This document shows positions 11,577 to 16,350 of a stretch of DNA of 64,000 nucleotides, in pieces (position 1 is the stretch's first letter; each line of letters starts with the position of its first letter). The DNA comes from a virus: IMG/VR virus record IMGVR_UViG_3300027714_000004, positions 81,427 through 145,426 of that record; one strand, 5' to 3'. The notes below the pieces were generated by a model that saw nothing but the letters and a program-made list of their open reading frames with translations, was not told the DNA's origin and made no database searches. A program made the position numbers and the translations under genes.

Positions 11577-11604
11577 AAAGGGACTCGAAAGAGTCCCTTT
11601 TTTT
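11577..11604. terminator. Bidirectional rho-independent terminator
   Basis: AAAGGGACTC and GAGTCCCTTT form a 10-base-pair stem with a GAAA loop. The plus strand continues with TTTT; read from the minus strand the stem also ends in a U-run. It separates gene 32 from the convergent tape-measure gene. Confidence 0.92.
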
Positions 11605-13105
11605 ATACTGATCTTCCTTGGTCGAAGGGATCCGCAGAATTATTCGAAGCTACGAGTACAGGGGCAGGAGCACTAGCAGCAGGTGCCGCAGATGTTCTAG
11701 AACTATTATCCATCATGACGATGTTAGCAGTCGCTTTAACTACATCGTTCTCCTTGACTGCACTATTTAACTGATTTGATCCAGTTGGTTTGTTGGTTGC
11801 TCCCGCCGCAGAAATATCGTCCTTACCATTGAGAAGGTAATCCAACCCCTTTCCAGACTCACCCCCCGAACCGATCAATATCGCTAAGTTCGCAAAGGAG
11901 AATACTTCCTTAGCTCTTTTAAATACTCTAGCCATCATTTCGGTCATATTGGTGAAGACTTCTTTCATAAACTCTACTGGCGAATCTATGAAGTTTGCAA
12001 TACCTTCTTTAATAGACTCGTACGCTGCACCGAAACTGAATGAGTCTAAGAACGCCGAGAATTTCTTGAATCCGAGTTTTTCGGATACCCAAGAGATTGC
12101 GTCCTTAACCATATCCGCAAGGTCGACAACAAAGAATTTTAATAGGTCGTCTATGATATTTTTGAGCGTACCGAAACCAAATTCACCGGACATTAAATCA
12201 CTAACAATATTCTTACCTACGATGAATGCAGCTGCTAGAGGGGCGAATATTTTTGATACTAGTTTAAAAACTGACCCAAAGGTTTTCGCGAAAGAACCAA
12301 ATTTAGTTCCTAGTTTCTGAAAGAACTCCATCACCTTTGCGATAGGGCCAGTAGTTTTACTTCCTCCTGCAAAGGAAAGGGTTTTCCCCAGAACTTCGAA
12401 GGGTTTCATGAATGACTTAAATCTCTCGCTCACCTTCGCTATAACTTGACCTAACTTACTTTCGGTGAACATGACCTTTAACTTAGTTCCCCATCCAGAT
12501 ATCATTTTACCGACAAAGGTGAAACCCTCTCTTACTTTACCGAGTCCAGTCATGAATACTTGTGTTATCGCCTTTCCGATTTCGATAGGGAATTTTACGA
12601 TCTTGGATATGAATTTAGGTGTCAGGAACTTGATAATCGCACCTAACGGTTTGAATAGTCCTGATATAGATCCTGCAAGAGTACCCATTGCAACTGCCGC
12701 AAGAGATGCGAACAGTCCTAATCTAGTTAGCATCTCCGATGGTTTGTCGTCTTTCTTCGGGTCGTCCTCTTCCTTCGAGGCACCTATATTTTGAATAGCT
12801 TCCAACAGGGAACTTTGCCAGATCTTAGTTTCGTTTCTACTTTCCAGATCATCTCCGGATGTATTAGATCCACCTTTAGATAGGTTTCTACGGATGTAAC
12901 CAAGATGACCAAACATCTGACTCAGAAGATTCTCGCTACGACCCACGCGCATAACGACATTTTCCATGACACCTTTCAGTGCCTCAGAATTGCTGGTCTG
13001 TACCTTAGTCTGGTTTTCTTGCCCGTCAATAAGCACTTTACTTTGTACGGACTGTCCATCGCGGACAGATTCTAGTTTACCAGATACTTCTTTGAGAGTT
13101 GCCAT
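11603..13105 (-). CDS. Tail tape-measure protein (gp29-type)
   Basis: 500 residues. The N-terminal 150 are polar and coiled-coil-like; the middle (about 130-420) has repeated amphipathic and hydrophobic helices with many Phe, Gly and Lys (LTRLGLFASLAAVAMG, FGSFAKTFGSVFKLVSKIF); the C-terminus is Ala/Ser-rich. The composition and the position just after the gp26/gp51-type genes fit the tape measure, which sets tail length in complex with chaperones and hub proteins. T4 gp29 is 590 residues, so a slightly shorter tail or a diverged protein is expected. No enzymatic domain seen. Last gene of the leftward operon. Confidence 0.75.
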   Translation of the reverse strand: MATLKEVSGKLESVRDGQSVQSKVLIDGQENQTKVQTSNSEALKGVMENVVMRVGRSENLLSQMFGHLGYIRRNLSKGGSNTSGDDLESRNETKIWQSSLLEAIQNIGASKEEDDPKKDDKPSEMLTRLGLFASLAAVAMGTLAGSISGLFKPLGAIIKFLTPKFISKIVKFPIEIGKAITQVFMTGLGKVREGFTFVGKMISGWGTKLKVMFTESKLGQVIAKVSERFKSFMKPFEVLGKTLSFAGGSKTTGPIAKVMEFFQKLGTKFGSFAKTFGSVFKLVSKIFAPLAAAFIVGKNIVSDLMSGEFGFGTLKNIIDDLLKFFVVDLADMVKDAISWVSEKLGFKKFSAFLDSFSFGAAYESIKEGIANFIDSPVEFMKEVFTNMTEMMARVFKRAKEVFSFANLAILIGSGGESGKGLDYLLNGKDDISAAGATNKPTGSNQLNSAVKENDVVKATANIVMMDNSSRTSAAPAASAPAPVLVASNNSADPFDQGRSV

Positions 13106-13108
13106 ATC

Positions 13109-13348
13109 TTACCCTTGTTGTTTTGCTCTTTCGTTTTTCTCTTTGATGTCTTCTATCAACATCGTCAAGTAAATCTCTCTCTCCCACGGAATCATTGTTT
13201 CGACCTCTTCCAACGAGTAACTAAAATTATTAAGAAGCTGGAAGTTAACCTGATAGTAATTCATCAGGTTATCGTGAGAGAGATTAACTAAAAAAAATCG
13301 TCCATCCCCTTCAATGTTCTTTCGTTCTTGTGGGAGCAAGACGTACAT
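13109..13348 (-). CDS. gp51-like small tail chaperone frame, probably a frameshift extension
   Basis: Open frame of 79 codons. The C-terminal NYYQVNFQLLNNFSYSLEEV and MIPWEREIYLTMLIEDI match the short proteins found before the tape measure in T4-like phages (often called gp51-like or tail assembly chaperone). It overlaps the end of gp26 by 61 bases. Neither its first ATG (13348) nor the ATG at residue 28 has a Shine-Dalgarno sequence. A run of eight T at the end of gp26 would allow a -1 slip into this frame, adding 60 residues to gp26 (see findings). Either an independent gene or the second half of a frameshift product. Confidence 0.65.
   Translation of the reverse strand: MYVLLPQERKNIEGDGRFFLVNLSHDNLMNYYQVNFQLLNNFSYSLEEVETMIPWEREIYLTMLIEDIKEKNERAKQQG
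13246..13271 (-). other. Stem-loop downstream of slippery U8
   Basis: TAACCTGAT at 13246-13254 and ATCAGGTTA at 13263-13271 form a perfect 9-base-pair stem with an 8-base loop. On the minus-strand mRNA it lies 18 bases after the U8 run at 13297-13290. Candidate stimulator of frameshifting. Confidence 0.5.
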
Positions 13349-13995
13349 TCAAATTCTATTGTTTGTGTTACTGAAGGTACCGAACTAATGAAGTTGGTGA
13401 TCTTCTCGAACTGTTCTGAAGACATCGAATCTATGAATCCCATGACCTCTTCCTTGGACTCATCTTTCATAGAAATTCTTTCTTCTTCGGTTAAGACTGA
13501 GTCGATACATGCTATGGAGAGCTGTAACATACTTTCCATTTCTGACTTTGAATCTAACAGGGTATCATTCGACAAGAAATCTTCGTATGATGGGTACTTC
13601 ATCTTGATAGATATTTTATCGTTGAGTGCAATTACGCTATCTACAACTTCCCCTACTACTTCGACCTTGTCTATATCAACTTTGACTTCGTTCTCGGTTT
13701 CACATTCAGAGCATTTAGCATTTATATCTGCTGACTCACCGACAGATTTTGCACGTATCTTAGTGAATAGGTAATCTACATCGAAAGTTGCCAAAGTTCC
13801 TTTAATAGGTTCTTCTATACAAGCTTCAATAGTATTCACCACAGAACGCAACATGTCCTTACGGTCTTGTGTTTCGTATGCGATCATCAGTGCTTTCTGT
13901 TCTTTAACTAGGAAGGGACGAAAGGTCGTCTGCTGTCCAGTTGATGGTACGGTAACAGTATAACTTGGGGTATCATTCAGTTTTGGTAATGCCAT
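13288..13995 (-). CDS. 26: Baseplate hub / tail assembly protein gp26
   Basis: 235 residues. MALPKLNDTPSYTVTVPSTG and FRPFLVKEQKALMIAYET match the T4_baseplate (gp26) family. Two CxxC pairs (C95/C98 in AKCSECE and C217/C220 in ECTSCS) form a likely zinc ribbon. In T4, gp26 takes part in assembling the central hub. In other tailed phages the gene in this position is a tail assembly chaperone made in two forms by frameshift. Here the frame ends in MDDFF at a run of eight T, directly overlapping the gp51-like frame. Co-directional with the tube-like gene upstream and the tape measure downstream. Confidence 0.85.
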   Translation of the reverse strand: MALPKLNDTPSYTVTVPSTGQQTTFRPFLVKEQKALMIAYETQDRKDMLRSVVNTIEACIEEPIKGTLATFDVDYLFTKIRAKSVGESADINAKCSECETENEVKVDIDKVEVVGEVVDSVIALNDKISIKMKYPSYEDFLSNDTLLDSKSEMESMLQLSIACIDSVLTEEERISMKDESKEEVMGFIDSMSSEQFEKITNFISSVPSVTQTIEFECTSCSHKNERTLKGMDDFF

Positions 13996-14017: not shown

Positions 14018-14638
14018 TTAAATATATTTTCCGAGATTGAGACTTATCTTGGGTTTTATCAGTTCTCTTTCATCCTTCACTACTTTCCATTTGGTGTAGG
14101 ACAATTGTACCGAGAATTCTACTAGTTGGTCTGCTTCGTTAGACAAAGAGATCGCGTTCAATGATGTTGGGAACGCATCTTCTAGTTCTACTGAGTATAT
14201 AGAACTTCCTAATATATCGAAATCTATACTCAGTGGGCCGAGATCGAATCCGATCCTCATCTGAGGTTTGACAAGTTGATGTAAGGTGACCTTCTTCTGG
14301 TACTGATCCTTATATGCAATATTGCCTCTCTCTTCGTCAATCATCAACGATGTCCACTCGTCGAAGTACTTCTTCACGCCATAGTCGTTTAACATAATGA
14401 AGGTAAGGTTAACGTCCTCCATTAGAAACCCGTTAACGACCTTTTCATTGTACACTCCGACATTCCAATCAAGGGTTGTCAGTTGCTTGCCGGGCAGGTC
14501 AATAGACTTACATAGGACGTTAATGTCACGCCCACCCATGTCTTCTGTCAATGACGGTAAACCAATAGCAAACTGATTCGCCATGGCCATGCCATTTTTC
14601 TGTGCCAGTTTACTTTTTAAATCTTCTATCCCAGACAT
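14018..14638 (-). CDS. Tail-tube-like protein (gp19/gp54 type)
   Basis: 206 residues. QFAIGLPSLTEDMGG, then INVLCKSIDLPGKQLTTLDW and VNLTFIMLNDYGVKKYFDEW follow the pattern of T4-type tail tube proteins, where SxxLPG and a strand ending in ...FxxW occur. Because the major tube gene gp19 normally sits beside the sheath gene and this one lies in the hub operon, it is more likely the tube initiator (gp54-like) or another tube paralogue. It forms part of the inner tube or its junction with the baseplate. ATG 14638 is three bases after the upstream stop. Confidence 0.7.
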   Translation of the reverse strand: MSGIEDLKSKLAQKNGMAMANQFAIGLPSLTEDMGGRDINVLCKSIDLPGKQLTTLDWNVGVYNEKVVNGFLMEDVNLTFIMLNDYGVKKYFDEWTSLMIDEERGNIAYKDQYQKKVTLHQLVKPQMRIGFDLGPLSIDFDILGSSIYSVELEDAFPTSLNAISLSNEADQLVEFSVQLSYTKWKVVKDERELIKPKISLNLGKYI

Positions 14639-15259: not shown

Positions 15260-15267
15260 TATTTATA
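15260..15267 (-). promoter_or_regulatory. T4-type late promoter core TATAAATA
   Basis: Exact TATAAATA on the minus strand, 28 bases before the ATG at 15232. It lies across the stop codon of the upstream sulfotransferase-like gene. Confidence 0.85.
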
Positions 15268-15841
15268 CAGAAAACATCCATTGATTTGAATCAAGTGTGT
15301 AGTCTTTCGATACAAAGTTGACTAACTTACTGATATCGTCGTATGCTACATCTAATACTAGGAACTGTTTATTCCTAATAGGGTCACTGGTGAACCACTT
15401 TATGGCTGTTGATTGATGTTGAACTCTATATGTCATCCACTCCCACACTACTTCTCTGGGGGTGAGGGGTTTCCCTGCAACCATTACCTGCTGACACTTC
15501 TCCAGTAGAGGAGAACTCATCCTACTCGCTAACCAACTCGCTTCGGTAACATAGTTTAATATAAAGTATGCATCCGGATACGCCTCGTACAGTTGTCGGT
15601 AGTATTGGTTACCTTCGATGTAGTCGTCGTTTTCAAAATAAGTCATCTCGGTATAGACAACACTGTCACTGATGGTGAGTAGTGGATCGTTACCTGCTAC
15701 GAGGTTACGTTTGATAGTCTTCGCAAGATTTCTTCTGCCCGAACTTACGCTTGCGACAGAGCAACCGCTGTCTCGCATAAGATCGCTTAATGGTTGGTTG
15801 GCTGAATGATCCATACCAATGAAGAATATTTTAGGGTTCAT
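15263..15841 (-). CDS. Sulfotransferase-like protein with altered P-loop
   Basis: 192 residues. KIFFIGMDHSANQPLSDLMRDSG sits where sulfotransferases have their IFIIGxxKTGTTSL...G PAPS-binding loop. YYRQLYEAYPDAYFILNYVTEASWLASR matches the second conserved element (YPdAkFILt.Rd...Wl.S). Both key loops have changed: the Lys-Thr-Gly core is absent and the TRD Arg is replaced by YVT. It may bind a different ligand, be inactive, or be a structural relic of the fold. ATGA overlap with gp4 ties it to head and tail assembly timing. The fold is moderately sure; the activity is doubtful. Confidence 0.6.
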   Translation of the reverse strand: MNPKIFFIGMDHSANQPLSDLMRDSGCSVASVSSGRRNLAKTIKRNLVAGNDPLLTISDSVVYTEMTYFENDDYIEGNQYYRQLYEAYPDAYFILNYVTEASWLASRMSSPLLEKCQQVMVAGKPLTPREVVWEWMTYRVQHQSTAIKWFTSDPIRNKQFLVLDVAYDDISKLVNFVSKDYTLDSNQWMFSV

Positions 15842-16350
15842 TTCTTTTTCTTTCTAAAAGGTGCTAGTTTCTTTAGGGGTTTCTTGGTACGCATCTTCTG
15901 GGTAGACTTGGGCATGATGCCCATAGCAGTCAGTTCCTTCTCAGTCCATATCTCGAAGTGGTACCCACGATCATCTGCATACTTCTTAGCAGCCTTCCAC
16001 TTGGATTGGTTCTTGATGTATGTCATACCTTCGTTCAGGATGGTTCGACGAGACTTACCTTGTTTACGTTCAGGTACCTTAGTCTCCTTGAAAGGTTTGA
16101 CTTCAACTAGAACAACACGACCAGACTTGTACTTGATAACAAAGTCCATGAAGTATCGGTGTGGTCGGTTGTCTGTTTCGCAGATGTAAGGTAGCACGAG
16201 CTCCTCGGACATCCATTGTACTACGTCCAAACTGTCGTCACACCACTTCATTACGTAGCGTTCCCACCCCGAACGGTAGACAACGTTGTCCGCATCCCCA
16301 GCATACTTCTCAGGGTTCTTTGGTTTGTATCTACCTTTATATGTTTTCAT
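15838..16350 (-). CDS. 4: Head completion nuclease gp4
   Basis: 170 residues. The pattern SGWERYVMKWCD, EELVLPYICETDNRPHRYFMDF, then VLVEVKPFKE, shows a PD-(D/E)xK nuclease-like core with likely residues E30, D69, E83 and K85. T4 gp4 (about 150 residues) acts at head completion before tail joining. The C-terminal 20 residues are Lys-rich, consistent with DNA contact. First gene of the leftward operon, read from the late promoter at 16381-16388. Confidence 0.88.
   Translation of the reverse strand: MKTYKGRYKPKNPEKYAGDADNVVYRSGWERYVMKWCDDSLDVVQWMSEELVLPYICETDNRPHRYFMDFVIKYKSGRVVLVEVKPFKETKVPERKQGKSRRTILNEGMTYIKNQSKWKAAKKYADDRGYHFEIWTEKELTAMGIMPKSTQKMRTKKPLKKLAPFRKKKK

Follow-up and report, generated by a model that had tools for sequence, protein, structure and literature searches.

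A T4-like phage gene that very probably yields two tail assembly chaperones by −1 ribosomal frameshifting

Introduction

At the 3′ end of gene 26 in the 64,000-nucleotide stretch of DNA from an uncultured T4-type phage analysed here (the window), a short gp51-like reading frame continues in the −1 phase, and the question arises whether it constitutes a gene of its own or the end of a longer protein that is reached by a shift of the translating ribosome. In phage lambda, the chaperone pair gpG/gpGT arises from a −1 shift close to where the short form ends, with slippage on G GGA AAG, and the genes follow the order tail tube, short chaperone, shifted part and tape measure. The preliminary description had cast gp26 and the gp51-like part as the G and T equivalents of such a pair, joined by frameshifting. 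This assignment is supported by a U-run that is universal in the clade of the window, by an invariant −1 relation and by selection on the T frame, and we consider it very probable from these sequence comparisons that gp26 and the gp51-like frame form one tail assembly chaperone gene with two products arising by −1 ribosomal frameshifting.

Results

The minus strand at the 3′ end of gp26 reads ...ACA TTG AAG GGG ATG GAC GAT TTT TTT TAG TTA ATC TCT..., exactly the GAT TTT TTT TAG ending with a run of eight T (13297-13290) that had been described. The gp26 frame (13995-13288, minus strand, 235 aa, Pfam T4_baseplate) terminates with the TAG at 13290-13288, and the phased heptamer T_TTT_TTT (U_UUU_UUU in the mRNA; 13297-13291, minus strand) is located within the T8 run directly 5′ of this stop. 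A −1 slip, by which base 13291 is read twice, leads as previously noted into the open gp51-like frame (F F L V N L S H D...), which extends to the stop at 13111-13109 and adds 60 residues after the two phenylalanines (LVNLSHD...KQQG; T or TAC-C part, 13109-13291 with its stop, minus strand). The predicted long product of gp26 plus T comprises 295 aa and contains the junction peptide ..GMDDFFLVNLSHD.., the −1 reading continuing as FF-LVNLSHDNLMNYYQVN... up to that stop. Among the window reading frames of at least 120 aa (17,042 codons), the gp26 site is the only in-frame T_TTT_TTN, and T8 runs occur just three times in the whole window, counting both strands.

Profile searches identified gp26 as a member of PF12322 (E=3.7e-58) and phrog_150 (E=2.9e-60). 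It is the one PF12322 gene in the 145,426-base virus record, which therefore holds no second gene to supply the long form. The gp51-like ORF of 79 aa matches phrog_634, annotated as baseplate hub assembly catalyst (E=2.4e-23), and, in addition, phrog_150 at its C-terminal end (E=3.7e-11); since phrog_150 is matched by both ORFs, the profile itself evidently includes joined forms. Directly upstream of gp26 lies the tail tube protein gene (14018-14638, minus strand; phrog_45, E=3.1e-28), preceded by a gp2-type DNA end protector gene (phrog_429). On the other side follows a 500-aa gene (11603-13105, minus strand) with a weak match to phrog_27688, a family of not known function (E=1.2e-5), and no firm tape measure match in the family search; it sits in the tape measure place and, on gene order, is probably the tape measure protein gene. 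The order of tail tube, gp26, T and tape-measure-like gene fits a gpG/gpGT-type chaperone.

Farther upstream, a weakly sulfotransferase-like gene (15263-15841, minus strand; PF17784, E 2.5e-4, just under the curated cut-off) lies between the DNA end protector gene and a gene for a TnsA-like N-terminal domain (15838-16350, PF08722), the latter taking the position of the gp4 head closure gene. The relative C48C1 carries no annotated gene at the position of the sulfotransferase-like gene.

A sequence search for solved structures related to gp26 gave none. The AlphaFold2 model of gp26, a confident one (pLDDT 87.8), likewise produced no significant match among the listed Foldseek hits in the PDB. 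The most probable of these, and the sole ones to combine sensible geometry with an appreciable probability, were the HK97 tail assembly chaperone 2ob9 (prob 0.41, E 2.8, 2.4 Å over 54 columns) and 3fgx (prob 0.33, below significance). The leading hits by E-value (GTP cyclohydrolase, rmsd 20 Å) are meaningless. In the viral library the model matched gp26 proteins of Vibrio, Acidovorax, Rhizobium, Campylobacter and Bacillus phages. Superposition onto 2ob9 covers part of the gp26 fold with a low score, and the model is thus weakly suggestive of an HK97-like chaperone of the gpG/gpGT type.

The conservation of the junction was analysed on 156 loci from two scans of viral contigs, plus named phages. 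The gp51-like frame lies at −1 to gp26 in all 155 sequences in which both halves matched, and this relation is likewise invariant in the 87 distinct junctions left after removal of duplicates. Each of the 87 carries a phased U_UUU_UUN, as UUUUUUU (44), UUUUUUC (40), UUUUUUA (2) or UUUUUUG (1). The same arrangement is present in named phages of Synechococcus, Prochlorococcus, Pelagibacter, Vibrio, Aeromonas and Rhizobium as well as of Sinorhizobium, Agrobacterium, Stenotrophomonas, Delftia, Xanthomonas and Acidovorax, those from Vibrio onwards being members of distant groups. In the T region, LSHDxLxNYY followed by PWERxIY forms a conserved motif. The sole exception seen is Vibrio phage D509 (L179, about 2160), which reads CTT TTC AAG TAA without a heptamer.

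These counts bear on the possibility that RNA polymerase slippage on T8, rather than the ribosome, produces the shift, the length of this run being close to that at which such slippage is generally known. In 40 of the 87 junctions, however, the sequence is TTTTTTC, whose six T are too few for the polymerase to slip efficiently, yet as a heptamer it remains ideal for the ribosome and keeps the same phase; what has been kept is the codon phase and not the run length. Polymerase slippage is accordingly very unlikely.

Ribosomal frameshifting should be reflected in selection on the −1 frame ahead of any start codon. Over codons 2-8 past the slip, pN/pS in this frame amounts to 0.097 in the clade of the window, compared to 2.05 and 2.12 in the other frames, and to 0.234 in the UUUUUUC group. 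The T region contains no stop in the −1 frame, compared with per-junction counts of 8.0 and 5.3 for the two alternative frames. At 86 of the 87 junctions the −1 frame has no ATG, GTG or TTG upstream of the slip, and at 78 there is none as far as the sixth codon past it, counting from the upstream stop. Moreover, a −1-frame stop immediately precedes the heptamer at 24 junctions, so that the heptamer is the sole entrance to the T frame there. As judged from these substitution patterns, purifying selection on the −1 frame is strong and sets in just past the slip, ahead of any usable start. Selection on codons that are readable only via a shift at the heptamer constitutes strong evidence for programmed frameshifting.

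The same data decide about the reading that corresponds to current GenBank-style annotation, namely a separate small gp51-like gene translated either from an ATG belonging to it or by ribosomes that re-initiate once gp26 has terminated. Many records indeed annotate this frame as its own CDS, e.g. as “baseplate hub assembly catalyst”; in some distant groups a −1-frame ATG overlaps the stop as TGATG or TAATG, as in Stenotrophomonas YB07, Delftia PhiW-14, Rhizobium RHph_I9 and Vibrio V07, and Vibrio D509 has a stop-overlapping ATG without a slippery site. Yet the codons following the slip are selected as protein although 78 of 87 junctions are startless as far as six codons beyond it. In the window, neither of the two −1-frame ATGs from which a free gp51-like protein could be made with most of its domain has a Shine-Dalgarno sequence, as the preliminary description had stated: the calculated pairing energies are +0.2 kcal/mol (ATG at 13348) and +0.3 kcal/mol (ATG at 13264), while the starts of gp26 and the tube gene reach −4.0 and −6.5, respectively. 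The ATG at 13348 is private to the window phage, which accounts for the single junction of the 87 with any start codon upstream of the slip, and that at 13264 falls within the conserved T domain. On start codons, selection and Shine-Dalgarno pairing, a separate gp51 gene is rejected for the window as extremely unlikely. The gp51-like frame is, by these sequence criteria, the C-terminal half of a frameshift protein. That the overlap is a mere accident of Phe-Phe coding with gp26 alone expressed, a reading to which the Phe-Phe end kept in T4 gp26 in the non-slippery codons TTC TTT might lend itself, has practically no probability left and is refuted by the selection test, by the absence of a T-frame stop from all 83 junctions of the two main groups and by the slippery Phe pair retained in the UUUUUUC group, though only 35 of the 381 Phe codons in the remainder of these genes are TTC.

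Two accessory elements had been suggested besides the heptamer. The Shine-Dalgarno-like AAGGGG is located at 13306-13311 (minus strand), 8 nt upstream of the heptamer as described. Its pairing with the anti-Shine-Dalgarno sequence has a mean of −5.9 kcal/mol in the clade versus −5.4 for synonymous codons, and −6.1 versus −5.1 for synonymous alternatives in a second comparison. Ahead of Gly, Glu is mostly encoded by GAG in the UUUUUUC group, though GAA is almost fourfold commoner in these genes (617 to 163). Pairing and codon preference, in sequences that are related to one another, provide moderate evidence that AAGGGG is probably a frameshift stimulator.

The second element, described as a perfect 9-bp stem-loop at 13246-13271 (minus strand), does fold in the window, where RNAfold predicts 10 bp with arms at 13271-13262 and 13255-13246 and −11.8 kcal/mol for the 70-nt stretch, but is not a conserved part of the signal. 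No conservation was found among relatives: the stem is largely lost in several (e.g. 0.0 kcal/mol in L137 and L153), its pairing of 75.3% compares with 73.9% in synonymous shuffles, and 26 of 40 relatives have a C-A mismatch at the loop-side pair. In structure-stimulated −1 frameshifting a conserved structure is usually placed 5–9 nt downstream, whereas this stem starts 19 nt past the end of the heptamer (18 nt past that of the T-run). With energies of about zero in several relatives and pairing barely above that of the shuffles, a conserved stimulator is ruled out and the role of the stem is doubtful. Alignment of the related junctions has thus upheld the U-run, universal in the clade of the window, together with the invariant −1 relation, and not the stem. 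The signal that can be named would consist of the heptamer and perhaps the Shine-Dalgarno-like element, and of nothing else.

Discussion

Based on these data we propose the following scenario for the expression of the window gene. The majority of ribosomes would terminate at the TAG at 13290-13288 and release the 235-aa short form (G or TAC-N), while a minority would slip back by one base with both tRNAs on U_UUU_UUU, continue with LVNLSHD... and produce the 295-aa long form (GT or TAC-NC). The slippery site, the open and selected −1 frame, conservation, gene order and homology are seen in the sequences, and from them we infer that slippage takes place; its frequency is likewise inferred. By analogy with lambda, coating of the tape measure protein would fall to the short form and recruitment of tail tube subunits to the T part, and the ratio of short to long form would set correct tail assembly; the division of labour between the two forms might be expected to follow this model. 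The signal is clean and testable, being composed of one heptamer and at most a Shine-Dalgarno-like helper.

In some relatives the gp26 stop itself offers a start codon. Four loci (L167, L169, L181 and L182) show TGATG or TAATG at the gp26 stop in the −1 frame alongside U_UUU_UUN and may in addition make a free T protein by re-initiation. In Vibrio phage D509 the T-frame ATG overlaps the gp26 stop (TAATG), and in its lineage the T domain may be expressed unfused. A more general scenario, which we regard as rather unlikely, would be that part of the gp26/T family makes T both fused by frameshifting and free by re-initiation where an ATG overlaps the stop (TGATG/TAATG), with the free T protein acting as a third component in the assembly of the tail, and that lineages such as that of D509 kept only re-initiation. 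The window itself has the frameshift arrangement only.

Frameshifting also has consequences for annotation. In L157, L159, L162, L163 and others, the GenBank CDSs named “baseplate hub assembly catalyst” start at internal codons of the T domain and thereby lose its conserved start, and several records (S-WAM1, ACG-2014d and ACG-2014e; L158, L171 and L175) have no annotation at all at the T domain. The junction data indicate that what very many marine T4-like phage records list as “baseplate hub assembly catalyst gp51” is, for the most part, the wrongly delimited C-terminal portion of a frameshift protein.

Compared to lambda, the succession of tail tube, gp26, T and the following long gene in the window corresponds to the order V-G-T-H, although the slip sequences differ (G GGA AAG versus U_UUU_UUU); the likeness claimed here is one of arrangement. 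In addition, window gp26 with its 235 aa and a Cys-rich, zinc-ribbon-like C-terminal end is larger than the lambda short form.

In the preliminary description, T4 itself was taken to express genes 26 and 51 separately. Two genes are indeed present, but their products are related to each other: T4 gp26 and gp51 are, like window gp26, both full-length members of PF12322 and share 20% identity over 161 columns (E 2e-6). Only gp51 bears the T domain, at its C-terminus, and the T part of the window aligns with its residues 200-245 (33% identity, hhalign E 2.9e-6). Both window halves are thus homologous to the T4 gp26/gp51 family, and phrog_634 joins both. By sequence, T4 gp26 and gp51 are paralogues, gp51 being a fused long form that already holds both halves, so that frameshifting appears to have been replaced: short and long forms originate in T4 from two separate paralogous genes on opposite strands and in the window from one frameshifted gene. 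T4 gp26 (gene at L161:7803-8429) ends with ...RGLKEFFELL, and its Phe-Phe in non-slippery codons (TTC TTT) resembles a relict. A tree of the G domain for dating the 26/51 duplication was set aside, the T4 26 and 51 clades being on long branches.

Vladimirov, Gautam and Davidson reportedly described in 2022 that frameshifting is conserved in several groups of T4-like phages and that separate genes are present in T4's own group. The PRFect article (PMC10885494) cites Vladimirov et al. 2022 (Virology 566:9-15, doi 10.1016/j.virol.2021.11.003) for T4-like phages in which a short and a fused long chaperone gene replace frameshifting, and the phage Adele article (PMC12846349) cites them for T4-like phages whose TAC-N genes bear a poly-T signal for the −1 shift. 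As far as these citations portray the 2022 examples, no basic difference from the window is apparent, since the gene is of the same kind, the poly-T signal lies in TAC-N and the long form is TAC-NC. In the chaperones of Vandenendeviridae and Andersonviridae (phage Adele, PMC12846349), TAC-N likewise carries a poly-T at its 3′ end for a conserved −1 shift, with GTTTTT as signal and in myovirus families other than that of the window phage. The present results fit what was reportedly proposed in 2022, namely that genes 26 and 51 of T4, classically assigned to hub assembly, encode tail assembly chaperones. The window gene would accordingly be a new and well-supported example of a mechanism and concept which, on the same account, had already been proposed for many T4-like phages. 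To these the present analysis adds a quantified signal, the finding that the stem is not a conserved element, and the recognition of many marine “gp51” entries as fragments.
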